Shown piece after piece: positions 3,371-16,781 of a DNA stretch of 41,627 bases. This DNA is from a virus: positions 1 through 41,627 of the IMG/VR virus record IMGVR_UViG_3300035701_000090; one strand, given 5' to 3'. The notes beneath the pieces were generated by a model. The model did no database searches. It saw only the letters and a list, made by a program, of their open reading frames with translations, and was not told the DNA's origin. Positions within the stretch are counted from its first letter, which is position 1; every line of letters begins with the position of its first letter. The position numbers and the translations under genes were made by a program.

Positions 3371-3371
3371 A

Positions 3372-3386: not shown

Positions 3387-3427
3387 AAATGGCTTAATTT
3401 TAGGCGAAATTCCAAGGCCTAAATATT

Positions 3428-4001: not shown

Positions 4002-4819
4002 TGGAGGACTATCAGGAATTATCAAGGGTGGAACCGGAGACAATACCGGCAATCGCGGACGATGTTCTTCTTGCCACCGCGGACCAGGTGGAGAAGAGGA
4101 TTGCCGCGATTCAGAGAATCAAGCAGGCGGCGCTACGAGTTACCCGGTCTACGGATTGGATAGACCAGAACGGCAAGCCCTACTTACAAGTCTCGGGTGC
4201 GGAGAAGATCGCCAGGCTCTTCGGGATCTCCTGGAGGATAGACGAACCCGTACTCGAGAAAGAGGATGACGGGCATTTCTCCTATACCTACAAAGGTTAC
4301 TTCTCCATGGGGCCCTCGGAGATCGAGGCCATAGGAGTCAGGAGCTCGAGCGACCCCTTCTTCTCTCGGGCCCATAAAGAGGACATCCCCCCGAGTGAGA
4401 TCGACAAGGGGAACGTCAAGAAGGCCGCCTATACAAACTGCATAGGAAACGGCATAACAAGGCTTCTCGGCCTGCGGAACCTCTCAAATGAGGACGTCCA
4501 GGGCGCGGGTATCGACACGACAAAGAGCGCGAAGGTTGAATACCAGAAGCCCGAGATGTCAAAGGATGCTCAAGAAATGAGGGCCCAGATTCTGAAGATG
4601 CTCGAGGAGATAGCAGAAGGCGATCCGATGAAGGTCCTTGACTACCTCGAGATGGCAACGGAATTTGTGGGCAAGGATGGCAAGGAAGTCAGGGGCAAGC
4701 GCGACCTCTCCAAAGTGTCGGAAAAGCAACTGCCGGTGACTTACGGCAAGGTCAAAGAGTCCTATGAAACCTGGCTTGAGGAGCACCAACAGCCCGAACT
4801 AGGTGATGGCAATGCTTGA
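3998..4819 (+). CDS. Probable single-strand annealing / recombination protein
   Basis: A 273-residue protein of a type common in phage recombination modules. Residues about 20-170 form a compact domain with WIDQNGKPYLQVSGAEKIAR and a later GNVKKAAYTNCIGNGITRLL segment. A C-terminal helical region (about 190-260) carries a GKDGKEV motif seen in phage annealing and exonuclease-partner proteins. I cannot place it firmly in the RecT, Erf or Sak/Rad52 families. The gene overlaps the downstream PD-(D/E)XK nuclease, the usual arrangement of an annealing protein with its exonuclease. It would act on 3' single-stranded ends made by that nuclease. Confidence 0.55.
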   Translation: MMEDYQELSRVEPETIPAIADDVLLATADQVEKRIAAIQRIKQAALRVTRSTDWIDQNGKPYLQVSGAEKIARLFGISWRIDEPVLEKEDDGHFSYTYKGYFSMGPSEIEAIGVRSSSDPFFSRAHKEDIPPSEIDKGNVKKAAYTNCIGNGITRLLGLRNLSNEDVQGAGIDTTKSAKVEYQKPEMSKDAQEMRAQILKMLEEIAEGDPMKVLDYLEMATEFVGKDGKEVRGKRDLSKVSEKQLPVTYGKVKESYETWLEEHQQPELGDGNA

Positions 4820-5744
4820 GGACATTGCACAAAAAGTCATAGAGCATAAAGCCAAGGGGATAAAGAACTACCCGCACAACAGCAACCGGGCCTCAGAGGC
4901 CGGACACCCCTGCGAGAGGTACTTGGTTTTAGCCCGGACGCATTGGAATGAGAAACCGCTCCACGATGTCGGGCTCGAGTTCATCTTCCAGGGCGGGAAC
5001 ATGATCGAGAAGATGGCCTTCAGAGAGCTCGAGGACGCTGGCTACGAGATCGTCGAGCAACAGAAGCCTTTCGAGTGGAAGGAACTCGAACTAACCGGAA
5101 GGCTCGATGCGAAGTTGAGACTCAACGGAAGCCTTATCCCGCTCGAGATCAAGGGGCTCCAGCCCTGGGATGCGGAGAGGCTCAATACCATTGAGGACTT
5201 CTTCACCTCGAAGAAGACCTGGATCCGAAAATACCCCGCACAGTTAATGCTTTATATGTTGATGGACGGGGGGAGCGAAGAGGGTATCTTCTATATCAAG
5301 AACAAGCAGAACTACCGACCAAAGGCCATACCGATAATCCTCGATTATGAATACGCGGAGGGGGTCTGCAAGAAGCTCGAGCGGGTCAACCAGCATGTAA
5401 AGGAAGGAACGTTGCCGGACCAGGTCGATGATCCTGAGGTCTGTCAATTTTGCAGTTTCCTTCTCCAATGCCTCCCGGACATCAAAAGAGACTCCCTCGA
5501 GATGATCGAGGACCCCGAGCTCGAGGAGAAGCTGATCAGGCGAGAGGAATTAGCTCTAGCAAGAACAGAGTATGAAAGGCTGGATAAGGAAATCTCAAAG
5601 ATTGTGAAGGGCAAGGAAAAACTCATGGTCGGAGACTTCCTGATTACTGGCAAGGAAACTCCGCGGAAGGGCTATATGGTTGAGGATTCATCTTATTGGG
5701 CGAAGAAGATAGTCCGCCTGGTTCCGGGAGCAACCGATGAATGA
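4812..5744 (+). CDS. Cas4/RecB-like PD-(D/E)XK nuclease with Fe-S cysteines
   Basis: A nuclease of the RecB/Cas4 family. Numbered from ATG 4812 (AGGTGA lies six bases upstream), the nuclease core has D99 in GRLDAKL, E112-x-K114 in PLEIKG and Q144 in KYPAQLML. One cysteine near the N-terminus (C34, GHPCERY) and three near the end of the core (C211, C214, C220) match the four ligands of the 4Fe-4S cluster in Cas4 and AddB nucleases. A charged helical tail follows at about 225-310. It probably resects DNA ends for the annealing protein encoded just upstream, with which it overlaps by eight bases. GTG 4803 and ATG 4806 are alternative starts. Confidence 0.8.
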   Translation: MLEDIAQKVIEHKAKGIKNYPHNSNRASEAGHPCERYLVLARTHWNEKPLHDVGLEFIFQGGNMIEKMAFRELEDAGYEIVEQQKPFEWKELELTGRLDAKLRLNGSLIPLEIKGLQPWDAERLNTIEDFFTSKKTWIRKYPAQLMLYMLMDGGSEEGIFYIKNKQNYRPKAIPIILDYEYAEGVCKKLERVNQHVKEGTLPDQVDDPEVCQFCSFLLQCLPDIKRDSLEMIEDPELEEKLIRREELALARTEYERLDKEISKIVKGKEKLMVGDFLITGKETPRKGYMVEDSSYWAKKIVRLVPGATDE

Positions 5745-6344: not shown

Positions 6345-6526
6345 TCGACTGTCACGACGGCAATATTGCGGGGGGCGTTGATACTTCCTGTCACTGGTAC
6401 GGTTCGGACGGGTACTGTCAAGACGAGGACCATGACTGCCCCTTAGAGTGGCCCGAGTGCTGTTGGGGATGCAGGATTGCCGATCAGTGCAAGAGCGTCT
6501 GCGCGAATGTGGCGGTGGGCAAGTGA
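6341..6526 (+). CDS. Cys-rich small protein, zinc-binding candidate
   Basis: A 61-residue acidic protein with nine or more cysteines. A CxxxxxC spacing is followed by a dense PECCWGCRIADQCKSVC cluster. It probably binds zinc or has disulfides. There is no signal peptide, so zinc is more likely. It overlaps the previous stop (ATGA), and its own TGA overlaps the ATG of the methyltransferase gene (TGATG), so its translation feeds that gene. Confidence 0.55.
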   Translation: MIDCHDGNIAGGVDTSCHWYGSDGYCQDEDHDCPLEWPECCWGCRIADQCKSVCANVAVGK

Positions 6527-7428
6527 TGATCCCTTCTGATGCTCTTTTAATTCCTGGGAAGGACATAGAAAACCAACCCTGGTTTCAACAATTGGTCGAT
6601 GACTGCCAAACGATAATAATCGAGACTCAATTCACGGCGCGGTGGGCGCTCATCGAGGGCTGGCACGCTGTTGGTTCAAGGATTGCAAACGAACCTCATC
6701 TCAAAAAGCAGGGGGGCTCGAACCTTCTACAAACTTTGAAACGCGTTTCAAAGTTCTTAAATACAGGTGAACGCACATTATATAAGGCCGTCCAGTTCGC
6801 CCGGCAATACCCGGACCTCTCAATGCTGCCCGAGGGGAAGAACGTAACTTGGCGATATGTCTGCAATGAACTTTTGCCAGAAACGAAAAAACAATATGAG
6901 CTGCCTGCAGGGAAGTACCGCGTCATTTACGCCGACCCACCTTGGAAGTATTCAAGTTCTGGGCTAGATCAGTACGGCCCTGCGGAACGGCACTATGATT
7001 CTCTTAGCATCAAAGAACTCTGTGGTTATCAAGACAAGAACGGTAAGAAAATATCAGAACTTGCGGGTGAAGATGCTGTCTTATTTCTTTGGGTTACATC
7101 TGGCATATTAGCCGAGTGTTGGCCCGTAATTGACGCTTGGGGTTTCAACTACAAATCCTCATTCATTTGGGACAAGATCAAGCATAACTACGGACATTAC
7201 AATTCCGTGAGGCATGAACTTCTTTTGATATGTACCCGAGGTTCTTGCTTGCCGGATGAACCTAAACTTTTTGATTCGGTAGTCGAGTTTGAAAGATCAG
7301 AAGAACACAGCGAGAAGCCCGGTATATTCCGCGAAATGATAGACGTTCTTTACCCGATTGGCAGGCGCATTGAACTCTTCGCGCGTTCAAAAACAAAAGG
7401 ATGGGAGACTTTTGGAGACGAGTTATAA
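6526..7428 (+). CDS. MT-A70 family adenine N6-methyltransferase
   Basis: An S-adenosylmethionine-dependent DNA adenine methylase. The catalytic DPPW is at residues 137-140 (YADPPWKY). Downstream FLWVTSGILAECW and a GFNYKSSFIWDK segment match the MT-A70 fold. The first ~125 residues form a separate helical domain, probably for target DNA binding. The start is ATG 6526, in a TGATG overlap with the upstream gene. The 3' end overlaps the next gene, which may encode a nuclease. The gene looks richer in A/T than its neighbours, suggesting later acquisition. The likely role is protection of phage DNA from host restriction, or regulation. The recognition sequence is unknown. Confidence 0.9.
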   Translation: MIPSDALLIPGKDIENQPWFQQLVDDCQTIIIETQFTARWALIEGWHAVGSRIANEPHLKKQGGSNLLQTLKRVSKFLNTGERTLYKAVQFARQYPDLSMLPEGKNVTWRYVCNELLPETKKQYELPAGKYRVIYADPPWKYSSSGLDQYGPAERHYDSLSIKELCGYQDKNGKKISELAGEDAVLFLWVTSGILAECWPVIDAWGFNYKSSFIWDKIKHNYGHYNSVRHELLLICTRGSCLPDEPKLFDSVVEFERSEEHSEKPGIFREMIDVLYPIGRRIELFARSKTKGWETFGDEL

Positions 7429-7885
7429 AGAGGGATATTACAAACAAAAATTGGCCGCTGGTATTGAGTATCAAGACTTTGTTTGTCTTCACCTTCATAG
7501 TCTCGGAATAGTTCTACAAAATATGCAGAGCCAAAAGTATCAACTTAAGAAAGAGAACCTTCTTGGCCTCGAGATAAAGTTTGATGATCGTTTCCAAAAG
7601 ACGGGAAATCTATACATTGAAATATCTGAGAAGGCAGACCCAATAAATAAATGTTTTGTTCCATCGGGCATTTATAGGGATGATGGGAACTGGCTTTATG
7701 GCATAGGTGATCGCCGGGAATTTTTTATATTCGGGAAATCATTTCTGAGACAAATTGACTCTGCAATTGACAAGCGCAATTGGCCAGGCGTTGAAAGAAA
7801 ACAAATCCATACATCCAAAGGTTTTGTCATACCAGGACAGCAAGCCATCAAATGGTGTCTGCGCCATATCATCTGGGAGACGTAA
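7412..7885 (+). CDS. Possible PD-(D/E)XK-type nuclease overlapping the methylase
   Basis: A 158-residue protein if started at TTG 7412, which has GGGAG a few bases upstream. It has a LGLEIKFDD segment and then NLYIEISEKAD about 12 residues on, an arrangement resembling the acidic/Lys active site of restriction-endonuclease-like folds. A GWLYG/EFFIFGK-type beta region follows. I do not recognise an exact family, so the function is inferred. It overlaps the methylase gene by 17 bases and shares its A/T-rich character, so the pair may have been acquired together. A frame open from TTG 7358 gives a longer but less likely start. Confidence 0.6.
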   Translation: METSYKEGYYKQKLAAGIEYQDFVCLHLHSLGIVLQNMQSQKYQLKKENLLGLEIKFDDRFQKTGNLYIEISEKADPINKCFVPSGIYRDDGNWLYGIGDRREFFIFGKSFLRQIDSAIDKRNWPGVERKQIHTSKGFVIPGQQAIKWCLRHIIWET

Positions 7886-8757
7886 TGGCAAGCAAGCGCA
7901 TGGTCTCAAGGCGGTCGGCAATCTCGAAGAAGATCGCCCGTATATCGTGGCAGGCCGATGCCCTGTATCATCGGACCCTCGCCTTCCTCGATGATGCTGG
8001 TCGCATAACCGCTGATCCTGAGGACTACCGGGCACAGGTGATACCGAAAGGAAAGTACGGCAAGGCCGTCCCGCTTACAAGAATCGAGTCGATTATCCAG
8101 GAACTTTATCAGGCCGGTCTTATCGGTCTGTGCGAATGCCCGGGTGGCCGGTGCATGGAATACAAGGACTTCGGGAAGTTCAATATCATCAGGTCTGACA
8201 GAGAGAAACAAGTCGAGTGTAAGGAGCCTGTGGGATTTCACTGGATGTCATGGAATGACAAGACATGCGAGAGCGCGCCTATCTTAACTGAAGTTAACTT
8301 AACTAAACCTAACTTAACTGCGCAGGGCGCAGAAGGGTATTCACCCGAATTTGAATCCTTCTGGAAACTCTACCCACGGAAGATCGAGAAGCCCAAGGCT
8401 TTTAAATGTTGGCAGGCGCGGCTGAAGGAAGGCGAGAAACCGACCCGCCTCAAGGTTTGTGCGGATAACTATGCTGGCACTTGTATCGCGCTTAAAACTG
8501 AGCCGCAGTTTATCAAGCACCCGGCTACATTCCTTGGCCGTGATAGACCTTATGAGGATTACAGAGTCAGCGTGCCAGTTGAAATCGAAGAACCCGTCAA
8601 GACCGACATCAACGGCAACCCGTTAGTCCACATAGATCATGCAGACGGAACAGGCGAATGGATCACCGGCAAAGAATTCGACGAGCTCCGCGGTGCAGGG
8701 AAAGTCATTTACAAGGACGGAAAATGGATGCGAGTAGAGGGGGAATTATGCCAGTAG
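7885..8757 (+). CDS. Replication initiation / organiser protein
   Basis: A 290-residue protein in the pattern of phage replisome-organiser proteins. The N-terminal ~110 residues are winged-helix-like (WQADALYHRTLAFLDDAGRI, then VPLTRIESIIQELYQAGLIG). A low-complexity linker follows, then a C-terminal FWKLYPRKIEKPKAFKCW motif with KHPATFLGRDRPYEDY, found in many phage initiators. ATG 7885 follows GGGAGA and the upstream stop. The linker DNA contains TTAACT repeats (8284-8319), a candidate origin, as in phages where the initiator binds within its own gene. No phage helicase or polymerase is seen, so it probably recruits the host replisome. Confidence 0.75.
   Translation: MASKRMVSRRSAISKKIARISWQADALYHRTLAFLDDAGRITADPEDYRAQVIPKGKYGKAVPLTRIESIIQELYQAGLIGLCECPGGRCMEYKDFGKFNIIRSDREKQVECKEPVGFHWMSWNDKTCESAPILTEVNLTKPNLTAQGAEGYSPEFESFWKLYPRKIEKPKAFKCWQARLKEGEKPTRLKVCADNYAGTCIALKTEPQFIKHPATFLGRDRPYEDYRVSVPVEIEEPVKTDINGNPLVHIDHADGTGEWITGKEFDELRGAGKVIYKDGKWMRVEGELCQ
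8284..8319. repeat. TTAACT repeat cluster, candidate replication origin
   Basis: TTAACT occurs at 8284, 8294, 8299 and 8314, with CTAACT at 8309, so all copies fall on a 5-base register. The cluster is A/T-rich in a G/C-richer gene and encodes only a low-complexity linker between two protein domains. Iterons inside the initiator gene mark the origin in lambda-type and several Gram-positive phages. The period does not match the helix repeat exactly, and no separate DnaA box was identified. Confidence 0.5.
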
Positions 8758-9239
8758 CAGCAGTCACAGCCGACATAATCCTGCTACCCATTCTCATAGC
8801 GGCCATAGCCGTAACGTTTGCGATAATCGCTTATCTCGACCTCGTGGACGAGAGGAAGAAGCAGAGGAGAGCCGAGGAAGGAATGCAGTTGTATGCCGGG
8901 CTTTTCTTGCGGCTAACTGCACAGCTAATGCGAGAGGACGGTTACGAAATCGAGGTTGCCGAGGACGGGAAAGTGACTCTGATCCAAATGGGCGAAGCCC
9001 CCGGCAAGACCGGGGCAGCGAAAGGAAGTGTTTATCCGTGGAAAGCACCACAAAAAACAGGGCAAATGCCCGACGATAAGAAGGGCGAGATACCGGCTGA
9101 CCCTTTGCACAGCGACAGCGGTGATACTCGCCCTTCCGATAGTCTATCAGGGATGTCAGGTTCCGAGGCAAAAAAAGGAGGTAAAACCTCAGGTGAAGGC
9201 GGCGATCCATGTCCAGTTAGAACAGACAGCGACCGTTGA
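8748..9239 (+). CDS. Small membrane-anchored protein
   Basis: A strong AGGGGGAATT precedes ATG 8748. The N-terminus is one clear membrane helix (ILLPILIAAIAVTFAIIAYL), followed by charged DERKKQRRAEEG and a soluble helical part to about residue 80. The C-terminal ~70 residues are disordered and hydrophilic and overlap the start of the transglycosylase gene in another frame by 212 bases. It could be a spanin-like or regulatory membrane protein; no family was recognised. Confidence 0.6.
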   Translation: MPVAAVTADIILLPILIAAIAVTFAIIAYLDLVDERKKQRRAEEGMQLYAGLFLRLTAQLMREDGYEIEVAEDGKVTLIQMGEAPGKTGAAKGSVYPWKAPQKTGQMPDDKKGEIPADPLHSDSGDTRPSDSLSGMSGSEAKKGGKTSGEGGDPCPVRTDSDR

Positions 9240-9714
9240 GCGCGACCCTATGCTCAAGCTGAGTGACGAGATTCACGACTGGTACGCGCAGAACGCAATC
9301 GAGCTGGAGAAGAAGTGGCAAGCAGAGTTAACGAGGAAGCGTTTGATCTGGAAGATCGACACCTGGTTGAGGCAAAGAGGTAGTCCGATGGTCGGTTGCG
9401 GCGAATACTACGTCCAGGGTCAGGAGCGTACGGGGATTCCCGCTACCCTTTCTGTCGGTATTGCAGAGGCCGAAAGCTCAAGCGGTATGGCGTGCTTTGC
9501 CCCACACAACGCTTTCGGGATGCTTGCCTACCCTGGCGGCTGGGGTTCGTGGGAGGAGGCGATAGCCGCAAACTTCGACTGGCTTGTTCGGTACTACGGG
9601 ATTCCGCAGAGTATGTCGGCTTGCCCAGGATATTGCGAGGGTGATGGGACGATGGGGACGGTGGATGCGGTGATGCGAATGATTAACAGTCTGGATGCGA
9701 GCGGGGTTGATTGA
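9028..9714 (+). CDS. Membrane-anchored lysozyme-like lytic transglycosylase
   Basis: The C-terminal ~120 residues match the lysozyme-like/SLT fold: TGIPATLSVGIAEAESSSG with candidate catalytic Glu in AEAES, then CFAPHNAFGML and GGWGSWEEAI. A basic N-terminus (RGKHHKKQGK) precedes a hydrophobic segment (LTLCTATAVILALPIVYQGC), so the enzyme would be anchored with its domain outside. GTG 9028 has AAGGAAG close upstream. A shorter product from ATG 9250 would lose the anchor. Its place in the early/middle region, not the lysis cassette, suggests local peptidoglycan opening or remodelling. Four extra cysteines in the domain could form disulfides. Confidence 0.65.
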   Translation: MFIRGKHHKKQGKCPTIRRARYRLTLCTATAVILALPIVYQGCQVPRQKKEVKPQVKAAIHVQLEQTATVERDPMLKLSDEIHDWYAQNAIELEKKWQAELTRKRLIWKIDTWLRQRGSPMVGCGEYYVQGQERTGIPATLSVGIAEAESSSGMACFAPHNAFGMLAYPGGWGSWEEAIAANFDWLVRYYGIPQSMSACPGYCEGDGTMGTVDAVMRMINSLDASGVD

Positions 9715-9911
9715 TGAACGATTTACTCAACCAAAAGACCAATCTTGACACACTTTGCGGCAAGTGCGGAAAGACACTCTCCAGCGGGTCAATCTATTAT
9801 TTCGGCGAAGACATGGCGCGGAGACTCGGCACGCCAACGGGGATTATCTGTCCACGATGTCTGGGATTGTGGGCGAAAGAAGAAATGGATAAATACAAGT
9901 CGGGGCCGTGA
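9714..9911 (+). CDS. Zinc-ribbon small protein
   Basis: A 65-residue protein with two CxxC knuckles (LCGKCGK and IICPRCLG), a classic zinc ribbon. ATG 9714 overlaps the transglycosylase stop (TGATG). It is the first of the long series of small Cys-rich genes. Confidence 0.7.
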   Translation: MNDLLNQKTNLDTLCGKCGKTLSSGSIYYFGEDMARRLGTPTGIICPRCLGLWAKEEMDKYKSGP

Positions 9912-9925
9912 ATAAGGGGGTTAAG

Positions 9926-10120
9926 ATGGAAGGCAAGAGTGGTGGTCTAGGGTTCGCAAGTGTTTTGTTTATCGTGTTTTTGGTCTTGAAACTGACTCAT
10001 GTGATTGCTTGGTCCTGGCTATGGGTGACAAGCCCGCTATGGCTTGGCTTCGGGGTTGCTATTTTTGTAATAGCAATCGTGGTTTTGATAGGACTTATCG
10101 CCACAAGAGACAAGAAGTGA
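9926..10120 (+). CDS. Two-helix small membrane protein, 'transmembrane Fragile-X-F'-like
   Basis: A 64-residue protein with two membrane helices (ASVLFIVFLVLKLTHVIAW and FGVAIFVIAIVVLIGLIA) and a short WSWLWVTSPLW turn, ending RDKK. The pattern of LKLTxVIxWSWxWVxSPLW matches small phage proteins annotated as transmembrane Fragile-X-F. AAGGGGG precedes ATG 9926. The function of the family is unknown. Confidence 0.7.
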   Translation: MEGKSGGLGFASVLFIVFLVLKLTHVIAWSWLWVTSPLWLGFGVAIFVIAIVVLIGLIATRDKK

Positions 10121-10155
10121 CACCGCCCTACAACCCGAACCCGCAGGAGGACTGA

Positions 10156-10368
10156 ATGATGAATGACTGCGATGATTGCGCCGCGTTTGAGGGCGAGATT
10201 AGCGACCTGAACGCCCGTATAGCTGATCTCGAAGATGATCTGAATGTTTACCGCGCACAATACGAAAAGCTATCAGAGGCTGTTGGCGAAATCGCTTGCC
10301 CGATAAGTGAGGCGATAAGTTGTTTAGCGCAAGCAGATAAGGCGGCTGATAGGGCTCGGGGGATATAA
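10156..10368 (+). CDS. Coiled-coil small protein
   Basis: A 70-residue acidic protein preceded by a perfect AGGAGG. It opens with two cysteines (CDDC) and continues as a heptad-rich helix (ISDLNARIADLEDDLNVY). It is probably a dimerising coiled coil. No enzymatic motif is present. Confidence 0.65.
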   Translation: MMNDCDDCAAFEGEISDLNARIADLEDDLNVYRAQYEKLSEAVGEIACPISEAISCLAQADKAADRARGI

Positions 10369-10369
10369 G

Positions 10370-10540
10370 GTGAAACGCCAAGTCTGCTGTAGCGAATGTG
10401 GGCGACCCGTAGAGGTCCGCACCTACACCGGCCTTGAGCGCATCCTGTGCCCTGGTTGTAAGAAGATTGAGGAGGAGAAGTTGGAGCGGGTGGACTGCCG
10501 GGAGTGTAGGACGAGGGAGTGCGAGAGAGATGCAAGGTAA
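10370..10540 (+). CDS. Zinc-finger small protein
   Basis: A 56-residue protein starting at GTG 10370. It has CxxC knuckles at CSECGR, CPGCK and CRECRTREC, three potential zinc half-sites. The A/G-rich stretch before the GTG serves as ribosome site. The 3' end overlaps the next gene by 11 bases. Confidence 0.6.
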   Translation: MKRQVCCSECGRPVEVRTYTGLERILCPGCKKIEEEKLERVDCRECRTRECERDAR

Positions 10541-10655
10541 GTGTGACGGTTGTGGCCGAATCGGAACCGTCGTTTATATACCGATGGAAGGAATATATTG
10601 CCCGCTTTGCGAGGCGATTATACTAGTCGAGGGTGTGAGAAGTGAGGCCGGATAA
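10530..10655 (+). CDS. 41-residue zinc-ribbon protein
   Basis: A minimal zinc ribbon: CDGCGRIG, a short beta hairpin with a Tyr-Ile-Pro turn, then CPLCEA. GAGAGAG precedes ATG 10530. The 99 bases after it (10656-10754) contain only a 29-codon GTG frame and no convincing gene. Confidence 0.6.
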   Translation: MQGKCDGCGRIGTVVYIPMEGIYCPLCEAIILVEGVRSEAG

Positions 10656-10754
10656 GAGCCGAGGGAAGCGAGGCGTGGGACTAACAAAGGGTCCGGTGAG
10701 GGTGGCACTATCACAGTTAGTGGGTAGGCTCGATGTCCGGCGAAAGGGGGAGGG

Positions 10755-10955
10755 GTGGAGATAGAGAGTGGTGAGTTTGAGGGGACTTGCGAAGACTGCA
10801 AGAAGCCTGTCCCCAATCTCTCTGCGGTTTATATCGGTGACAAGGAATCGTGGCTCTGCTTCACCTGCCTCATCCTCCTCCGCGACCTAGCCCACGAAGC
10901 GACCTGCGAAAAAGACGTGACCGGCAAGTGCGAGTGTTGGGAGGGGGAGCGATGA
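10755..10955 (+). CDS. Zinc-ribbon protein with a KCECxEGER tail
   Basis: A 66-residue protein from GTG 10755, with AAAGGGGGAGG upstream. CEDCKK and CFTC form a zinc ribbon. The end, GKCECWEGER, is nearly identical to the 13-residue micro-ORFs at 11752 and 12136, and the DNA of the tail is shared as well. Its stop overlaps the next ATG. Confidence 0.6.
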   Translation: MEIESGEFEGTCEDCKKPVPNLSAVYIGDKESWLCFTCLILLRDLAHEATCEKDVTGKCECWEGER

Positions 10956-11266
10956 GCGAAAGATGTACTGATGGTGCAGACGATCTTCGGGACAGAGAAG
11001 AAGATGCTGCGCTCGAAGAAGCATCGCGGAGGCAAAGAGCGAAGGCGAAAGGGGGAGAGATGAGCGAGTGTCCGATAAAAGACGGCTGCAAGTTTTTGGA
11101 TGAGTGGTACTGTCCGTTCAAGACGGAGTTCAACTGCCCCGACCCCTGCTCCTACGCCCCCATCCTCAAACTCCTGGCAGAGGCGAGGGAAGTGGGGGAT
11201 ATTAAGTCAAACCAAAGAGCTTTCCCTGATGACCGGTGGGATATTTCATTCTGGATAAGGAGGTAG
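10952..11266 (+). CDS. Cys-rich protein with TraR/DksA-like N-terminal helix, or shorter from ATG 11060
   Basis: ATG 10952 (ATGA overlap) gives 104 residues. The first 35 (DGADDLRDREEDAALEEA region) resemble the helical N-terminus of TraR/DksA proteins, but the matching C4 zinc module is absent. A second start at ATG 11060 has an excellent AAAGGGGGAGAG and gives a 69-residue Cys-rich protein (CPIKDGC, WYCPF, NCPDPC). The tail PILKLLAEAREVG ... SFWIRR is a paralogue of the tail of 12174-12392, with 39 and 19 bases of near-identical DNA. Confidence 0.55.
   Translation: MSERCTDGADDLRDREEDAALEEASRRQRAKAKGGEMSECPIKDGCKFLDEWYCPFKTEFNCPDPCSYAPILKLLAEAREVGDIKSNQRAFPDDRWDISFWIRR
11161..11199 (+). repeat. 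39-base block, first copy (second at 12287-12325)
   Basis: This block encodes ILKLLAEA(R/K)EVG and recurs at 12287-12325 with one internal mismatch and one at the last base. A companion 19-base identical block lies at 11244-11262 and 12370-12388 (TTTCATTCTGGATAAGGAG). Genes between and around the blocks differ, so segments have been exchanged between neighbouring genes. Confidence 0.85.
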
Positions 11267-11269
11267 GGG

Positions 11270-11467
11270 ATGACTCTAGTCAAAACCATGAAATCGGATA
11301 TCACTCATGCCGACTTTCCCGACTTTCCCGGCTTATTGTTACCACTTTGCGGTCAGAGTTTCAGAATAGACGATTGGATATTGGTTAAAGAATGGACTGA
11401 TGAAGAACCCATCTGCAAAAAATGTCTCGCCATTCTGGAGAAGCGGGGGAGGGTGGAGAATGGATAA
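11270..11467 (+). CDS. Small protein ending CKKCLAILEKRGRVENG
   Basis: A 65-residue protein with AAGGAGG upstream of ATG 11270. The C-terminal CxxC (ICKKCLAILEKRGRVE) is almost identical to the end of the 13122-13331 product, while the N-terminal halves are only broadly similar. It probably binds zinc through C27 and the CKKC pair. The function is unknown. Confidence 0.6.
   Translation: MTLVKTMKSDITHADFPDFPGLLLPLCGQSFRIDDWILVKEWTDEEPICKKCLAILEKRGRVENG
11426..11457 (+). repeat. 32-base block, first copy (second at 13296-13327)
   Basis: The block encodes CLAILEK(R/Q)GRVE and recurs at 13296-13327 with one mismatch. The two copies are 1.9 kb apart at the 3' ends of otherwise diverged genes. 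Confidence 0.85.
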
Positions 11468-11759
11468 GTGCGAAGGATGCCCGATAGTGTTTGGAACCGA
11501 GCTGGTAGAAATAAAGGGATATGGGCATTGTGGCCGTTCGTTAAAGGGCGGAGCCTATCCCTGCCACCTCACCGCCGATCACCAACGCTTCATCTCGGCC
11601 ATGCTGCGGGGCGTGTTCGATTGCGGGCATTGTTGGCATGGGACTGTCGAGGGCAAGAACAAAACGGTTTATTGCGTCCTGGCGGGGGATGGGAATCATA
11701 TCCCCATTGGTTGTTTTTGTGACAGGTGGCAAGAACGCAAGGGGGAGGAAGATGGCTAA
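11460..11759 (+). CDS. Cys-rich protein with CHLT...FDCGHC and WQERKGEEDG tail
   Basis: A 99-residue protein with several candidate zinc ligands: CEGCP, HCGR, a PCHLT segment, GVFDCGHCWHG and CFCDRW. It ends in WQERKGEEDG. Paralogous to 11790-12143: the 36 bases encoding AMLRGVFDCGHC are identical (11598-11633 and 11979-12014) and the tail DNA is shared. GGTGGAG precedes ATG 11460, which overlaps the upstream gene. Confidence 0.65.
   Translation: MDKCEGCPIVFGTELVEIKGYGHCGRSLKGGAYPCHLTADHQRFISAMLRGVFDCGHCWHGTVEGKNKTVYCVLAGDGNHIPIGCFCDRWQERKGEEDG
11598..11633 (+). repeat. 36-base identical block, first copy (second at 11979-12014)
   Basis: An exact 36-base duplicate coding for AMLRGVFDCGHC in two neighbouring genes whose flanking sequences are clearly diverged. 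This points to recent exchange or strong constraint. Confidence 0.9.
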
Positions 11760-11785
11760 GAGCAAGTGCGATTGTTTTGAGGGGG
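11727..11785 (+). repeat. 59-base block, first copy (second at 12111-12169; partial third at 13625-13652)
   Basis: The block spans the end of one gene (WQERKGEEDG), a GGGGGAGGAAG ribosome site and the start of a 13-codon micro-ORF. The copy at 12111-12169 differs at one base. A 28-base third copy with one mismatch, at 13625-13652, launches a different gene. It acts like a movable stop/ribosome-site/start joint. Confidence 0.9.
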
Positions 11786-11793
11786 GAAGATGA
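11752..11793 (+). CDS. 13-residue micro-ORF, MAKSKCDC type
   Basis: ATG follows GGGGGAGGAAG, and the TGA overlaps the ATG of the next gene. The peptide MAKSKCDCFEGGR matches the tail of the 10755-10955 protein (KCECWEGER). It may be a coupling leader or the remnant of a zinc-ribbon gene after internal deletion. The close second copy at 12136 argues that it is kept or copied as a unit. Confidence 0.35.
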   Translation: MAKSKCDCFEGGR

Positions 11794-12143
11794 ACGAACA
11801 GGATGAGATCGACGCGATATCAGACTTGGCGAAGAATGTCATGAGGGCAGAACGGGAAGGGAAAATCGGTAAATGCCGAGGGTGCTTCGCAGAATCTTGG
11901 ATAACCTGCTTTGCAGAAGCGTTGGGAGTTGACCAAAAAGACTGCCACCTAACCCCCGATACCAAACGCTTCATCGGTGCCATGCTGCGGGGCGTGTTCG
12001 ATTGCGGGCATTGTAAGTTTGAGTCAGAAGGTGGCAGTTACTTTGATGGTTGCGAGTTCAGATATACAAGTGCTTCCATGATCGAGAAGAAAGATTGGTT
12101 CTGCCCAGAGTGGCAAGAACGCAAGGGGGAGGAAGATGGCTAA
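11790..12143 (+). CDS. Cys-rich protein paralogous to 11460-11759
   Basis: A 117-residue protein. A new helical N-terminus of ~27 residues (EIDAISDLAKNVMRAEREGK) is followed by CRGC, DCHLTPDTKRFI, GVFDCGHC and a WQERKGEEDG end. A good GGGGGGAAG precedes ATG 11790. The shared blocks are in the middle and at the end; the rest has diverged. Confidence 0.65.
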   Translation: MNEQDEIDAISDLAKNVMRAEREGKIGKCRGCFAESWITCFAEALGVDQKDCHLTPDTKRFIGAMLRGVFDCGHCKFESEGGSYFDGCEFRYTSASMIEKKDWFCPEWQERKGEEDG

Positions 12144-12177
12144 GAGCAAGTGCGAGTGTTTTGAGGGGGAGAGATGA
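12136..12177 (+). CDS. 13-residue micro-ORF, MAKSKCEC type (second copy)
   Basis: Same architecture as 11752-11793: strong ribosome site, MAKSKCECFEGER, TGA overlapping the next ATG at 12174. Its last 32 bases resemble 10924-10955 with three mismatches. Confidence 0.35.
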   Translation: MAKSKCECFEGER

Positions 12178-12392
12178 AACCTGAATGTGACTATTGCGGA
12201 AGTGAGGAAAAAGTCTTTCTACTTAGTGGGTATTCTTTCGAGTATTGCCCCAAATGTGACAAGGCAAAAATAGAGGCAATGCGACCCATCCTCAAACTCC
12301 TGGCAGAGGCGAAGGAAGTGGGGGGACTCTTTGTTTCGCGTTATGGAGGAGAAACGGGCAAAGATTGGGTTTCATTCTGGATAAGGAGCTAA
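12174..12392 (+). CDS. Zinc-ribbon protein with ILKLLAEAKEVG...SFWIRS tail
   Basis: A 72-residue protein. CDYCGS and CPKCDK form a zinc ribbon at the N-terminus. The C-terminal half is a paralogue of the 10952-11266 product. GAGGGGGAGAG precedes ATG 12174. Its stop overlaps the first possible ATG of the HNH gene (12392). Confidence 0.65.
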   Translation: MKPECDYCGSEEKVFLLSGYSFEYCPKCDKAKIEAMRPILKLLAEAKEVGGLFVSRYGGETGKDWVSFWIRS

Positions 12393-13138
12393 TGTTGTCG
12401 GCCTGTGGTATAATAAACCTAAGTAGTAAAGGAGTCGATGTGTCGCAGGGTTTTTTATATCCTGACAATAGCCGCCCAATGGGGGAAGAAGTTGGCCTTG
12501 CGGCTGGCTCCTTTACTACTACCCCAGAGGGCGGCTTTACGTTGAAGGCCGATATGAAAAGGTGTAGCAAGTGCTCTGGGGGGTTCCCCGCTACTGGTGA
12601 ATATTTTTATCGAACCAAAAGAACAAAAGACGGCCTTCATTCAACTTGCAAAGTCTGTTCTTCTAAATACGGTCGGTTACATTACGAGCGGAACCGCGAA
12701 AGATACAACAAGAATGCTCGCAGACATTATATAAAGAATCGCGACAAACGGATTAAATCTGCTTGCCTATGGCAAAAAGATAATAAAGAACATCTGAATG
12801 AATCTCGCGCTAACAATCCACGATATCGTGTTAGCCATGCGATTAGTGTGGGTATATGGCGGTCTCTTAAGTATAGCAAAAATGGACGGCGTTGGGAAAA
12901 ACTTGTTGGTTATACCGCTGATGACTTAATGGCACGTCTTGAATCTCTTTTTGCCGACGGGATGATTTGGGACAATTACGGAGAATGGCACATAGACCAT
13001 ATCAAACCAATCTCAAGTTTTAACTTCGAATCGAAACATGACCCTGAATTTAGAGAATGTTGGGGATTGCAGAACCTTCAACCATTATGGGCAAAAGAAA
13101 ATATAAGCAAGGGGGCAAGTCGTGAAGTATTTGATTGA
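12392..13138 (+). CDS. HNH homing-type endonuclease
   Basis: From ATG 12554 the product has an N-terminal zinc finger (CSKCSG, CKVCSS), a basic linker of repeated Arg/Asn/Tyr residues (YERNRERYNKNARRHYIKNR) and an HNH core (WHIDHIKPISSF, then GLQNLQPLWAKEN). This is the layout of free-standing phage HNH homing endonucleases. ATG 12392 has AAGGAG three bases upstream and would add 54 residues of no recognised domain that overlap the inverted repeat. Which start is used is undecided. The gene is visibly A/T-richer than its neighbours and sits inside the zinc-ribbon array, so it is probably an insertion. It would cleave homologous genomes lacking it. Confidence 0.85.
   Translation: MLSACGIINLSSKGVDVSQGFLYPDNSRPMGEEVGLAAGSFTTTPEGGFTLKADMKRCSKCSGGFPATGEYFYRTKRTKDGLHSTCKVCSSKYGRLHYERNRERYNKNARRHYIKNRDKRIKSACLWQKDNKEHLNESRANNPRYRVSHAISVGIWRSLKYSKNGRRWEKLVGYTADDLMARLESLFADGMIWDNYGEWHIDHIKPISSFNFESKHDPEFRECWGLQNLQPLWAKENISKGASREVFD
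12406..12414 (+). promoter_or_regulatory. Extended -10 promoter-like element
   Basis: TGGTATAAT is an exact extended -10 (TGnTATAAT). There is no good -35. The surrounding CCTGTGGTATA (12402-12412) recurs at the strong late promoter (15748-15758). It would start a transcript near 12421, just before the inverted repeat and HNH gene. Confidence 0.4.
12422..12520 (+). ncRNA. Potentially structured RNA leader upstream of the HNH gene
   Basis: A perfect 13-bp inverted repeat (AGTAGTAAAGGAG at 12422-12434, CTCCTTTACTACT at 12508-12520) brackets 73 bases. Inside and beyond are AGCCGCCC at 12470-12477, which can pair with GGGCGGCT at 12529-12536, and a competing GCGGCT. The segment follows an extended -10 element and ends about 30 bases before ATG 12554. 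The main stem would sequester AAAGGAG. It could be a regulatory leader or an element-associated RNA. The same bases are also an open frame extending the HNH protein upstream, so RNA function is not certain. Confidence 0.35.
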
Positions 13139-13331
13139 GGTTAGGCCGATAGTGAGCATAGACGAAACTTGGAAGCCACGAAGTAAGGTTCATGCAGAGA
13201 TTGGTTTTGGGCGTTATGCCGGAAGTCGCGTTCTTTGTGGGTCAGACCTTGAAAGACCAGAATTAACTGAAGCCCCCGTCACCTGCAAACGCTGCCTCGC
13301 CATTCTGGAGAAGCAGGGGAGGGTGGAATGA
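13122..13331 (+). CDS. Small protein ending CKRCLAILEKQGRVE
   Basis: A 69-residue protein from GTG 13122 with AAGGGGG upstream, overlapping the end of the HNH gene. It has a single Cys (VLCGSD) and a CKRC pair near the C-terminus, probably one zinc site. Paralogue of 11270-11467, especially over the shared 3' block. Confidence 0.6.
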   Translation: MKYLIEVRPIVSIDETWKPRSKVHAEIGFGRYAGSRVLCGSDLERPELTEAPVTCKRCLAILEKQGRVE

Positions 13332-13663
13332 GTGCCCCATGTGTAGGTTGCTGCGAAACCGATGTCACGGTTTGCAAAACTTGCGGGTCGTTTTACGACT
13401 ATAGACAAGCGGAGTGTGACCTTGATAGATGCGTAATGGATGAACCCGGTATCAGGATAGACAACAAGGCCATTCGTTTTACATATAAAAATGGCGGGAC
13501 GAATTGTTTTTGGGATGACCTGAAACCGCGATGGATTACGCGAGGCTACAAAAGACCCTTCTGGGGGATATTGAAATTCTACCGCCAGTTCAAGAAGGCA
13601 TTGCCGAAAACCCTTGAATACATGTGGCAAGAGCGCAAGGGGGAGGAAGATGAAGTGCGTTGA
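13328..13663 (+). CDS. Cys-rich protein with WQERKGEED tail
   Basis: A 111-residue protein. The N-terminal half has many cysteines (CVGCCE, CKTCGS, CDLDRC). The C-terminal half is basic and aromatic (YKRPFWGILKFYRQFKKALP). It ends in the WQERKGEED motif shared with two genes upstream. It overlaps the previous gene (ATGA). Confidence 0.65.
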   Translation: MSAPCVGCCETDVTVCKTCGSFYDYRQAECDLDRCVMDEPGIRIDNKAIRFTYKNGGTNCFWDDLKPRWITRGYKRPFWGILKFYRQFKKALPKTLEYMWQERKGEEDEVR

Positions 13664-13982
13664 AGAAGATTGCCCGCTATGGGTGCCGGAATTACAAGAC
13701 ATTGGCGGTTGCTCTTGGTTTCACACGGAGCCCTGCCACTTAACCCCTGCTGCTATGCGCATTGTCAAACTTCTAATCGAGTACGGCATATCAGACGAAG
13801 ACGCGGCGATAGTTGAGCAGGCGATAGCGGGGGAGGGGCGACTGAAACTGGAAAGACCCTTATGCCCCGTATGCCACGATACCGGTTTTACTAGTGAATA
13901 CAAAACTTACCCTTCGGGGGGTAGCGTCTCCACGAAATCATGTCCTCGTTGCAGAACCGGGCAAGACCAAGGCGGTGAGTAA
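13650..13982 (+). CDS. Zinc-ribbon protein with DnaJ-like CPVCHDTGF
   Basis: A 110-residue protein with a GGGGGAGGAAG site from the shared block. The N-terminal part has CVEEDC and a PCHLTP segment like the neighbours. A helical middle follows, then a C-terminal CPVCHDTGF ... CPRCRTG pair, a CxxCxxxG-type zinc site of the DnaJ central domain kind. It may bind protein or nucleic acid. Confidence 0.65.
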   Translation: MKCVEEDCPLWVPELQDIGGCSWFHTEPCHLTPAAMRIVKLLIEYGISDEDAAIVEQAIAGEGRLKLERPLCPVCHDTGFTSEYKTYPSGGSVSTKSCPRCRTGQDQGGE

Positions 13983-14236
13983 TGAGCTGGAAGGATGACA
14001 ACAAGGAAACGACAGACCGTCTTCTCGCCGAGCGTAAAGTCGAGTACCCCATCTGGATATTCATAGAACCCGGCGTCGACATTCGGAAGGCTCAAGAGCG
14101 GTGGAAGGGAACTGCTTTTTTCCAGGCGCAGGTTCTTTGCGCCCTTATGCGCGAGGCCCTTGAACCACTTGTGGGGTGGCGGAAGGTAGTAGTACGGGTT
14201 GTCGTGTGGATGAGCGGCAAGTTGAGAAGGCGGTGA
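13982..14236 (+). CDS. Hypothetical 84-residue protein
   Basis: ATG 13982 overlaps the previous stop by one base. The start (SWKDDNKETTDRLLAERKVE) is charged and helical. A hydrophobic C-terminal stretch (LVGWRKVVVRVVVWMSGKL) could touch a membrane. It has only one cysteine, unlike the neighbours. No family was recognised. Confidence 0.5.
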   Translation: MSWKDDNKETTDRLLAERKVEYPIWIFIEPGVDIRKAQERWKGTAFFQAQVLCALMREALEPLVGWRKVVVRVVVWMSGKLRRR

Positions 14237-14239
14237 TTG

Positions 14240-14389
14240 ATGAGCAAGCAATTACGTTGTGGCGATTGCTATCTTCTGTGGCAATGCTTAATCAACTACG
14301 ACCATGATCCTGACATGAATCCGTGGGATGAGGGTTGTAATGCCTTGGGGCCGGAACCGTTGGAGGAGGGGAAAGATGAAATGCTCTAA
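14240..14389 (+). CDS. 49-residue Cys-containing protein
   Basis: ATG 14240 follows the previous stop after three bases. CGDC, LWQC and EGCNAL supply four cysteines for one zinc site in a very small acidic protein. The 3' end overlaps the next gene. Confidence 0.5.
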   Translation: MSKQLRCGDCYLLWQCLINYDHDPDMNPWDEGCNALGPEPLEEGKDEML

Positions 14390-14576
14390 ATGCGGGGCTG
14401 ACATGAAGTATGTGAACGAGGACGGGAATGAGATAACTTGCGTAGCGATTAGAGTTAGTGACGAAAACACTTTGGGTCTATTCAAACGCCACGTTCCCAG
14501 CAGCTATGAATTCTGTAATGACTGCCTTCTCAACGCTTTGGGGATACCCGATGATGTTGACCAGGGGAGTGAGTGA
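14376..14576 (+). CDS. Zinc-ribbon small protein
   Basis: A 66-residue protein with GGAGGGGAAAG upstream of ATG 14376. CSKCGAD and FCNDCLLN make a zinc ribbon with a beta-rich loop between. The stop shares a base with the next ATG (TGATG). Confidence 0.65.
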   Translation: MKCSKCGADMKYVNEDGNEITCVAIRVSDENTLGLFKRHVPSSYEFCNDCLLNALGIPDDVDQGSE

Positions 14577-14743
14577 TGCTTAAAGACCTTAGAATCGAGA
14601 GAAAGAGCAGGGGCATTTACGAGGTTTCCTACGCTCCATATTCTGGTTTCAGGACCGGCTGGACAACGCTATGTCTGACGGACTGGTTTGCGAAACGCTC
14701 GATAAAAAGGTGGCTGAAATCCGAGGAAGCAAAAGATGTCTGA
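14576..14743 (+). CDS. 55-residue basic hypothetical protein
   Basis: Starts in a TGATG overlap. Beta-rich and aromatic (YEVSYAPYSGFRTGWTTL), with a basic Trp-containing helix at the end (KRSIKRWLKSEEAK). It overlaps the next start by eight bases. The product is plausible but of unknown function. Confidence 0.5.
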   Translation: MLKDLRIERKSRGIYEVSYAPYSGFRTGWTTLCLTDWFAKRSIKRWLKSEEAKDV

Positions 14744-14924
14744 CTTTTGCCGACCCGAACCCGACCCTGCAAAAGAGGCCACATCCTACAAAATGGCGCA
14801 GTGGAAGGGCCATGGTGACGCGCTGATAGAGCGAACCTGTATTGTCTGCGGCAAGAAGATGATGGTACCGAAACATCATACGGGGACAAAATACTGTGAG
14901 GAGCACAAGCCCGATGAACACTGA
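14736..14924 (+). CDS. Zinc-finger small protein
   Basis: A 62-residue protein with CIVCGKKM and a following HHTGTKYCEEH, which could supply a C3H or C2H2-type site. GGAAGC precedes ATG 14736. The pattern resembles short zinc fingers at the ends of phage regulatory proteins. Confidence 0.6.
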   Translation: MSDFCRPEPDPAKEATSYKMAQWKGHGDALIERTCIVCGKKMMVPKHHTGTKYCEEHKPDEH

Positions 14925-15069
14925 TGACCTAGCCCGTCTCATGATCTACCTCGCGGCTCTTGTTGTGTGGGCACTTTCTGGTCGTGACCGGGAGCTTTAC
15001 GAGGAAGTCAGAAACCAGGGCACGATGAATTGGGAGAAGATCAAGGAAGAGGCATTTGAAAAGCCTTGA
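14914..15069 (+). CDS. 51-residue protein with one hydrophobic helix
   Basis: Overlaps the previous gene by 11 bases. One hydrophobic segment (LMIYLAALVVWALSG) near the N-terminus could be a membrane helix; the rest is charged. GAGGAG lies about ten bases upstream. The function is unknown. Confidence 0.5.
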   Translation: MNTDDLARLMIYLAALVVWALSGRDRELYEEVRNQGTMNWEKIKEEAFEKP

Positions 15070-15358
15070 AGTCTTAGGTGAACTTGTCGATAGGATAACC
15101 TCGCAAAAGTATTCTCCACCTACCAGCGGATCTCTTATGTCCGTTCCTCAGAAGCACACCTATATCGAGGGCGAACCCAAGGTTTACAACAAGCGGGCCG
15201 AGCAAGAATTAAAGAACCTCGACGAAGATATCTGGAGGCTGATCGACTGCTATAATACTAGAGACCATTTCAACGGTCGGAGGCCGGGTCGGTGCCGGCA
15301 TAAGTGGTTGAAGTTCTGCTCACGTTGTGGGGAGAGATACGAGCCGGATAAATTTTAG
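15056..15358 (+). CDS. Hypothetical protein with C-terminal zinc ribbon
   Basis: TTG 15056 is preceded by AGGAAGAGG and overlaps the previous gene. The 100-residue product has a helical N-terminus, a middle of charged helices and a C-terminal CRHKWLKFCSRCGERY, giving C, H and a CxxC pair as zinc ligands. Confidence 0.6.
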   Translation: MKSLEVLGELVDRITSQKYSPPTSGSLMSVPQKHTYIEGEPKVYNKRAEQELKNLDEDIWRLIDCYNTRDHFNGRRPGRCRHKWLKFCSRCGERYEPDKF

Positions 15359-15368
15359 GGGGAAGAAT

Positions 15369-15734
15369 ATGAAGTCTCGGAGACGGTCGATAAGAGACTT
15401 GGCCACAAAGAAGATGATTGAGATAACGGAGGGAGGAGGCCCACCTAGAAGGCCAAGGCCAATAGTATATATCCAATTGCCAGGTGAGAAGGTTTGGCAT
15501 ATATATTATCATCCGATTCAGAGCCACTACTTGGATGTTAGCCTGGCGCTAGTTCATGTTTGGTGCGGGAATTACCAAGCCAAGAGATATGGTTTCGGGA
15601 AGGAATCTTATCTACTTGGTGAGGTTGTTGAGACTGAAAACATTTGCCAGGACTGTCTGACCGCGTTGGATGACTTCCATGAGAGAGTAAAGCGGGGAGG
15701 TTTCAGATACCCGCCTGAAAAAGCTTTTACTTGA
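15369..15734 (+). CDS. Basic protein, last gene of the small-protein array
   Basis: A 121-residue protein from ATG 15369 behind GGGGGAAG. The start is very basic (KSRRRSIRDLATKK). The centre is beta-rich (IVYIQLPGEKVWHIYYHP). A CQDC pair lies near the end. Its last codons overlap the -35 of the late promoter. As the nearest gene to the late leader it is a candidate late regulator, but only by position. Confidence 0.55.
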   Translation: MKSRRRSIRDLATKKMIEITEGGGPPRRPRPIVYIQLPGEKVWHIYYHPIQSHYLDVSLALVHVWCGNYQAKRYGFGKESYLLGEVVETENICQDCLTALDDFHERVKRGGFRYPPEKAFT

Positions 15735-15765: not shown

Positions 15766-15829
15766 GTCAGAAGTGTCTAGAAAGTTAATATGAGCATCAA
15801 ATGGGCCCACTAAATCGGTGGGTCTTTTT
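15766..15829 (+). ncRNA. Short leader RNA between late promoter and terminator
   Basis: A transcript from the promoter at 15731 would end at the terminator at 15804-15829, giving about 65 nt. No convincing reading frame lies in it. This matches leaders of antitermination-controlled late operons, but it could also be an independent small RNA. Confidence 0.4.
15804..15829 (+). terminator. Intrinsic terminator in the late leader
   Basis: GGCCCAC (15804-15810) pairs with GTGGGTC (15818-15824) with one G-U pair across a 7-base loop. Five T residues follow. It lies immediately downstream of the late promoter and ahead of all late genes. Confidence 0.75.
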
Positions 15830-15870
15830 CTATTCCCCCGGCACTTACCCCGGTGCCGCAAGCCGCCGGC

Positions 15871-16245
15871 ATGACCGGTGATCATCTCTTACCCAAGCCC
15901 TGTCGAGCACCGCCGCTGTTTAACTTGGCAGGGCTGACCCTTTATCCCGGGAGGGATTTTATAATAGCTGCCATTGTCGGAAGATGCGAAGTCCCCGGAT
16001 GCCCCAAGTTATCAGAACACAAACATCACATCTATACCCGTGGGCGATATTGTCAGGCGGCTATGGTAGTTGCTAACGAGTTCTACTGTTGCGCTGATCA
16101 CCATATATTATCAGGGGACTCATGGCATCAGAAGGGAAGAGAGAGATTCGCTAAAGCACATGGGCTTGGGGATAGAGTAGAGAAAGCAAGACAAGCGGTC
16201 CAGGGGAAGATGAACGAGAGGTACAGGAGAGTCGAGGTTGCCTAA
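15871..16245 (+). CDS. HNH endonuclease of the packaging module
   Basis: Zinc-binding CEVPGC, then HKHHIYTRG, NEFYCCADHH and SWHQKG give the metal and catalytic His/Asn positions of an HNH nuclease. HNH proteins beside terminase genes (HK97 gp74 type) stimulate terminase cutting and are linked to cos packaging. ATG 15871 is the first ATG, but it has no ribosome site and the first ~30 residues look non-native. GGAGGG at 15950-15955 is ideally placed for an unusual ATA start at 15964, which would begin right at the domain. GTG 15853 is a third option. Confidence 0.7.
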   Translation: MTGDHLLPKPCRAPPLFNLAGLTLYPGRDFIIAAIVGRCEVPGCPKLSEHKHHIYTRGRYCQAAMVVANEFYCCADHHILSGDSWHQKGRERFAKAHGLGDRVEKARQAVQGKMNERYRRVEVA

Positions 16246-16453
16246 GAAGCAGATAACGTTTATCGCATCCTTCCCGAATATCCAAACGGCAATCTGTCAA
16301 CACGGTAACGGTGATGGGTTCTTGGTGAAGTTAGACATCCCGCAATCGGAGCATTTATCGGTGATGAAGTTAGGTCTTTTGACTAGCTGCGCTTTTAAGG
16401 TTTCAGTGGAGGTACCAGAAGAACATGCCCGCGAAAAAGAGTTCATCGGCTAA
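16238..16453 (+). CDS. Small hypothetical protein before the small terminase
   Basis: A 71-residue protein from TTG 16238 with AGGAGAG upstream, overlapping the HNH gene by eight bases. Beta-rich (ITFIASFPNIQTAI, then FLVKLDIP). It overlaps the small terminase gene by 29 bases. Not recognised. Confidence 0.55.
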   Translation: MPKKQITFIASFPNIQTAICQHGNGDGFLVKLDIPQSEHLSVMKLGLLTSCAFKVSVEVPEEHAREKEFIG

Positions 16454-16781
16454 CAAGGTTGACACTAAAAAAAAGGCTCTTGACGGCTACGTTGAGACTG
16501 GCACTGTAACAGGCGCCTGCAGAGTTGCCCGGATAAGCCGAACAACATTTTACGAGTGGCTCAAGAAAGACCCGAAGTTTGCCAAGCAGTATGAGCACGC
16601 GAAAGAACAGGTAGGGGATCTGCTTGAGGAAGAGGCCCTCAAGCGAGCTTATGGTGGTGACCACACCTTAATCATATTTCTGTTGAAAGGCTTGAAGCCT
16701 GAGAAGTATGGAGACAAGCAGGCCCTCGAGCACGGCGGTAGCGTGACTATCATTCTCCCCGAGGGAATGGACAATGCCTAA
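16425..16781 (+). CDS. terS: Terminase small subunit
   Basis: A 118-residue protein. After a Lys/Ser-rich start comes a helix-turn-helix (ALDGYVETGTVTGACRVARI, then RTTFYEWLKKDPKF) of the kind that recognises the packaging site. A helical oligomerisation region follows (EQVGDLLEEEALKRA), then KGLKPEKYGDK, frequent in small terminases. The gene directly precedes and overlaps the large subunit. It selects phage DNA and presents it to the motor. Confidence 0.8.
   Translation: MPAKKSSSANKVDTKKKALDGYVETGTVTGACRVARISRTTFYEWLKKDPKFAKQYEHAKEQVGDLLEEEALKRAYGGDHTLIIFLLKGLKPEKYGDKQALEHGGSVTIILPEGMDNA

Follow-up and report, generated by a model that had tools for sequence, protein, structure and literature searches.

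How do small phage genes come to share near-identical stretches of DNA with one another when the sequence between those stretches has lost any visible resemblance? The question is raised by a crowded zone in IMGVR_UViG_3300035701_000090, a complete IMG/VR virus record of 41,627 bases that was analyzed whole and is called the window here. Between its replication genes and its terminase lie about 23 small, tightly overlapping genes and one HNH-type gene (positions 9714-15734, here the array). The region is best read as an accessory small-gene zone of a temperate phage, and its run of small genes is translationally coupled. It is probable that this zone has been diversified by tandem and nested duplication, together with recombination at translational joints, the places where the ribosome-binding site (RBS) and start codon of one gene meet the end of another.

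The initial annotation, made from the sequence alone, described the array as a mosaic of shared DNA blocks, and the repeat pairs that it named were all found in place. Exact matches extend over 28 bp (11159/12285), 19 bp (11244/12370), 19 bp (11426/13296), 36 bp (11598/11979), 46 bp (11726/12110), and 15 bp (10924/12146), and a further 19 bp at 13634 match both 11736 and 12120. Ten exact pairs of at least 14 bp were observed in 9714-15734, compared with a mean of 0.1 in first-order Markov simulations. The ten gapless high-scoring segment pairs listed score between 15.5 and 61.5, whereas the highest score reached by chance over 30 simulations was 14.5, and 279 kb of other phage loci hold only two repeats of at least 19 bp spaced 100-3000 bp apart. 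The extent of the mosaic is narrower than was first proposed: all significant repeats fall inside 10739-13652, and the small genes in 9714-10738 and 13653-15734 are free of shared blocks.

The arrangement of the blocks is that of a tandem segmental duplication and not of a shuffle, since blocks A, B, C, and E are collinear at near-constant offsets. Along the DNA the order is A1-B1-C1-D1E1-D2E2(A3)-B2-insert-C2-XE3-D3. First and second copies are separated by 1222 bp for A, 1126 bp for both B blocks, 1870 bp for C, and 1898 bp for E; subtraction of a 729-bp insertion (12393-13121) brings the C and E offsets to 1141 and 1169 bp. Random placement of the second copies along the segment would give four corrected offsets within 96 bp of each other with P of about 8e-5, and the pairing seen is the tightest among the 24 possible orders. 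An A-B-C-DE unit of about 1.2 kb thus recurs in tandem from 10.92 to about 13.98 kb, with the same order in both units, and the changing block order that had been read into the array is rejected. Within the unit, the D and E copies are offset by 381 and 384 bp, which is a second, nested duplication of about 0.38 kb in which the DE gene was duplicated. This nested event accounts for the third copy of A (838 = 1222 - 384). None of the other loci compared has the large tandem duplication seen in the window.

Copies of a block are 81-98% identical, with almost no synonymous differences, and the 46-bp identity runs across a stop/start overlap into the next reading frame. Both observations argue against protein-level selection as the cause, and as the only cause of block identity it is rejected. 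The position of the blocks points instead to translation. Blocks A, B (second part), C, and E stop no more than 5 nt from the start codon of the following gene; this holds for eight of twelve block copies, a result equalled in none of 20,000 random draws. The RBS lies in the joint DNA itself, as in GGGGGAGGAAGATG and AAGGAGGTAGGGGATG, and because the joints contain the RBS of the following gene, the repeated C-terminal sequences RKGEEDG, CEGER, and RGRVE amount for the most part to a purine-rich RBS translated into protein. Of the interchangeable 3' modules of the initial annotation, the WQERKGEED tail is carried by D1, by D2, and by the unrelated core X, and most such ends are RBS/start joints read as C-termini. 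No common recombination site was found among the joints. A single integrase was found, a serine recombinase encoded near the repressor and some 7 kb away from the array. For these reasons an integron-like array is rejected.

Between the blocks, alignment is apparently at chance level and lengths differ, in agreement with the earlier description of this sequence as diverged. Because the middles of the genes do not align between near-identical blocks, we infer that gene cores have been replaced. For example, B1 and B2 have ILKLLAEAxEVG and SFWIR in common, and their Cys-rich N-termini differ. The cores of D1 and D2 have similar Cys spacing and may be distantly related, so that a foreign origin is not needed for every core; a third member of the D family, D3, is 36% identical over aligned positions, a weak relationship.

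Comparison with other phages supports mosaicism at the level of whole genes. One relative, L026, is 76% identical to the window in nucleotide sequence over the portal gene and up to 84% over the capsid genes. In its small-gene zone only 2 of the 23 array genes are common (14736-14924, 88% amino acid identity; 15369-15734, 80%), in the same order with different neighbors. Homology begins exactly at the start codon of the former; for the latter it begins at the RBS, 12 nt before the gene starts. The zone in L026 has no noteworthy repeated blocks of its own. The sister phages L005 and L007 are 95-98% identical across most of the length that they have in common and differ in their counterpart of this zone. 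A 22-bp joint, ATTAGCCATGGGTGAAAAATGA, stands upstream of three unrelated genes in these sisters; two L005 genes missing from L007 lie between copies of GGGTGAAAAATGA, and three L007 genes missing from L005 are bounded at both ends by AATGAC start codons. Furthermore, one Cys-rich gene is swapped for a diverged homologue with near-identical flanks, so that different genes between the same boundaries are seen for L005 versus L007. Together with the near-identical blocks around unrelated cores, these comparisons support the earlier proposal of recombination at conserved joints, and recombination at RBS/start joints appears to be a property of this kind of zone. No relative with identical gene order and content, which would have spoken against shuffling, was found.

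Searches for relatives with the window's own joints, by pattern and by profile, found none. In IMG/VR, no match was obtained with exact DNA patterns for the WQERKGEED and ILKLLAEA blocks or with a degenerate pattern for AMLRGVFDC, and profile scans with the D and B families gave no confirmed relative. In phage GenBank, searches with the array genes at the DNA and protein level returned nothing meaningful, the sole DNA match being the HNH gene, and the left-flank gene at 9028-9714, used as an anchor, found no relative. Two further observations were made in the phages compared. The large terminases of L025 (278-1522) and L026 (5233-6492) differ in the N-terminal part and look identical in the C-terminal part, a pattern that suggests intragenic recombination. 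A 374-residue open reading frame (ORF) in the small-gene zone of L007 (1731-2855), absent from L005, resembles a TnpB-type (IS605/IS607) protein by eye.

Several routes to such an array can be considered. Under the account that we favor, unequal recombination between joints would produce the duplications. At the joints, recombination of the homologous or annealing type, both inside the genome and with other phages, would then swap cores and bring about gain or loss of whole genes, and translation would act as a filter that keeps joints usable by the next gene. Cas4-type exonucleases, one of which is encoded in the window, are often paired with annealing proteins. The blocks have 57% GC and the intervening sequence 48%, a weak hint of different origin. 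Several points weigh against this account. No annealing protein was identified in the genome, where the gene at 3998-4819 is a candidate by position only. Two block types (B at 11159-11198, and D) lie inside genes, away from joints. The terminase region of L026 is very different, and a large share of the left part may have been replaced in a single exchange rather than one gene at a time. The G-rich RBS sequence may partly explain the difference in GC. Finally, no relative with the duplicated part (10.7-13.7 kb) was found, so the history is read from one genome.

Plain tandem duplication followed by divergence is simpler: cores would change fast under relaxed or diversifying selection, tails would be held by their role as RBSs, and phages would need to exchange nothing. 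Collinear order, constant offsets, the similar Cys spacing of D1 and D2 (some cores being possibly distant homologues), and the overlap of the blocks with constrained RBS/start sites all agree with it. The RBS constraint, however, covers about 12 nt, which leaves unexplained the identities of 28, 36, and 46 bp and their near lack of synonymous change. The B1/B2 and D1/X cores are unequal in length and cannot be aligned, the WQERKGEED tail also occurs on an unrelated core, and swaps are directly visible in the sister phages, all of which makes this history unlikely. A dedicated cassette exchange, in which the joints are landing sites and a specific enzyme (HNH/endonuclease-VII-type or an annealing protein) swaps the genes in the manner of integrons, is very improbable. 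Repeated joints, swapped cores, an HNH-type gene at an array joint, and the Cas4-type exonuclease speak for it, but joints A, B, C, and E differ and give no single consensus site, and relatives use other joint sequences. Moreover, many phages have relatives of the HNH gene, which resembles an ordinary homing-type gene of the free-standing kind, and L005 and L007 have rearranged at joint edges with no HNH-type gene recognized among the L005 array ORFs examined. Even less credence is given to an assembly chimera of two related strains in the metagenome, joined as an artificial tandem of diverged units. The record is a single metagenomic one and its two units resemble alleles with different cores; yet reading frames, stop/start overlaps, and RBSs are intact at all unit borders, the nested 384-bp duplication and the HNH insert each count as a separate event, and the sister phages independently show the same joint behavior. 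In a further reading, RBS/start joints are kept as standing landing sites and the array is a self-renewing store of small accessory proteins, its joints duplicated and a resident HNH endonuclease stimulating exchange. We regard this reading as doubtful; if true, new cores would find a C-terminus and an RBS ready for use and could be translated immediately.

The 729-bp insertion contains only the HNH-type gene and its leader, and is placed in the B2/C2 RBS/start joint of the second unit. Relatives of the gene occur in 134 phage records, and its intergenic placement and HNH/endonuclease-VII-type domain fit a free-standing homing endonuclease. Its 164-nt leader (12393-12556) is predicted to fold unusually well, at -66.5 kcal/mol (z = -4.75), with a long near-perfect stem, AGUAGUAAAGGAGUC / GGCUCCUUUACUACU, and no Rfam family matched this segment. 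By analogy with the homing endonucleases of T4-like phages, the gene could add local breaks (PMC2988022).

With respect to the proteins, the description of about 20 small, mostly zinc-ribbon genes holds for a Cys-rich set. CxxC motifs, 28 in total in the array, occur in 17 of its 23 genes and in 1 of 34 genes elsewhere in the window, and Cys content is 5.65% compared with 1.15%. Ten of the 23 have at least two such motifs, the paired pattern of zinc ribbons. The gene at 12554-13138, however, is of the HNH/endonuclease-VII type and sits in the insertion. Scans of the array genes against Pfam and PHROG gave no convincing family match except for the HNH-type gene, and the best matches to zinc-ribbon families were under the curated cut-off (e.g. 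Zn_ribbon_Nudix, 20.6 versus 25.6 bits). AlphaFold models of three D-family sequences had a mean pLDDT of 42. The array proteins might conceivably be dispensable host-interaction factors whose variety is kept by changing hosts or defences; such a role, to which clusters like the SPO1 module lend plausibility by analogy, is a guess.

Coordinates are collected in Table 1. The 13-codon ORF at 11752-11793 has its own RBS, GGGGGAGG, and a near-identical copy at 12136-12177; the two (MAKSKC(D/E)CFEG(G/E)R) may be relics in which a joint outlived its gene. Block A1 is 91% identical to 12146-12177 and 81% to 11762-11798. Gene B1 contains a second in-frame start, ATG 11060, where an 18-bp RBS/start copy lies 108 bp downstream of the first (10942-10959 / 11050-11067); 11060 may be the true start, and B1 is perhaps a fused gene pair. 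Given its serine integrase, repressor-like gene, terminase, portal, and head genes, the phage is most likely a temperate tailed phage. Its terminase has as best isolated-phage match Thermoanaerobacterium phage THSA-485A (41.5%) and only distant Clostridia relatives among reference genomes, which leaves the host uncertain. The window also encodes an MT-A70-type adenine methyltransferase at 6448-7428 (Pfam PF05063, E = 2e-17).

Table 1. Features of the window, in order of position (CxxC, cysteine pair motif; HTH, helix-turn-helix; aa, amino acids).
Feature	Position	Strand	Remarks
Serine integrase	1102-2436	minus	
Repressor-like HTH gene	2987-3415	minus	Match weak and under the cut-off
Gene without informative match	3998-4819		Precedes Cas4-type exonuclease gene
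Cas4-type exonuclease	4803-5744		
Replication protein	7852-8757		Followed by small-gene zone
Small genes upstream of duplicated part	9714-10764	+	Six ORFs, several CxxC; only short RBS matches shared
Block A1, KCECWEGER joint	10924-10955	+	Spans the C-terminal end of gene 10755-10955 and both RBS and start of gene 10952
Gene B1, 104 aa	10952-11266	+	Blocks 11159-11198 and 11244-11265 match B2 at offset 1126
Gene C1, 65 aa, C-terminal end CKKCLAILEKRGRVENG	11270-11467	+	Block 11410-11457 88% identical to 13280-13327
Gene D1E1, 99 aa, Cys-rich	11460-11759	+	Blocks 11561-11633 (89%) and 11726-11794 (96%) match D2E2
13-codon mini-ORF MAKSKCDCFEGGR	11752-11793	+	A-type joint between D1E1 and D2E2
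Gene D2E2, 117 aa, Cys-rich	11790-12143	+	Nested tandem duplicate of D1E1
13-codon mini-ORF MAKSKCECFEGER, block A3	12136-12177	+	
Gene B2, 72 aa	12174-12392	+	Zinc-ribbon-like N-terminus (CDYC..CPKC) on shared ILKLLAEA..SFWIR tail
Structured leader of HNH gene	12393-12553	+	Outer stem over putative RBS
HNH/endonuclease-VII-type gene, 194 aa	12554-13138	+	PHROG 1035 endonuclease VII, E = 7e-24
Gene C2, 69 aa, C-terminal end CKRCLAILEKQGRVE	13122-13331	+	Offset to C1 1870, 1141 minus insertion
Gene X-E3, 111 aa	13328-13663	+	Unrelated core and WQERKGEED tail; 13620-13652 94% identical to 11722-11754
Gene D3, 110 aa	13650-13982	+	Weak third D-family relative (PCHLTP motif), C-terminus differs
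Small genes downstream of duplicated part	13982-15734	+	14736-14924 and 15369-15734 common to L026
Terminator-like hairpin	15803-15825	+	Just past last array gene; pattern scan
Possible HNH-like gene	15853-16245		
Small terminase subunit	16425-16781		Followed by large terminase, portal, and head genes

The initial annotation proposed a candidate for an undescribed system, but the pattern falls within known phage mosaicism. The array is best read as a well-resolved case of ordinary mosaicism, close to the boundary-sequence mosaicism of lambdoid phages and of the mycobacteriophage LRRHood, in which short conserved sequences at gene ends flank small genes that are exchanged or lost. In LRRHood, a 29-bp direct repeat flanks four genes and lies at one gene's end and ahead of another gene (PMC3029335). 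The likeness lies in the eight of twelve block copies at starts, the L005/L007 insertions and deletions at GGGTGAAAAATGA and AATGAC, and the start codon and RBS at which homology with L026 has its edges. The array differs in having several recurring joints, a tandemly duplicated unit, joints that carry the RBS of the next gene, and some intragenic blocks. In cluster K mycobacteriophages, SAS and ESAS repeats are found just upstream of the starts of unrelated small genes, and the authors of that study suggest that such repeats could be recombination targets (PMC3203893). In contrast to the single 13-bp SAS consensus, the array has four different joints of 22-69 bp that wholly or partly encode the preceding C-terminus and are alike only as purine-rich RBSs. 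ESAS also has imperfect inverted repeats of 17 bp upstream of the repeat. A search of the whole window for inverted repeats gave one pair, 20 kb apart, at a minimum length of 26, so that a 17-bp repeat of the ESAS type could be missed.

Mosaics can be made by phage annealing proteins where homology is short and imperfect, with longest perfect stretches that included 49, 41, and 11 bp (PMC3945230), and relaxed recombination of this kind may explain mosaics like the present one. T4-like phages have free-standing homing endonucleases with hairpins that sequester the RBS (PMC2988022), and the window likewise has an HNH-type gene between genes with strong predicted RNA structure over its RBS; unlike theirs, its gene is an endonuclease-VII-type relative. 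The host-takeover module of SPO1 comprises 26 genes for potentially cytotoxic, host-directed proteins (PMC6873191). The array, by comparison, is Cys-rich, belongs to a temperate phage, and adjoins the terminase, and a functional likeness is guesswork.

Earlier work thus already covers boundary sequences, repeats that precede start codons, and relaxed recombination (PMC3029335, PMC3203893, PMC3945230). What is added here is a clear case within one genome, together with what the joints consist of and two comparisons in which relatives display the same type of event. Mosaic joints are rarely visible because both partners have usually diverged, and several of them can be seen here in a single genome, with matching events in the sister phages. 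Since such a joint is often an RBS with its start codon, it is easy to see how small genes can remain expressible after a swap. Should the proteins act on hosts, zones of this kind would be promising ground for new anti-defence or takeover proteins.

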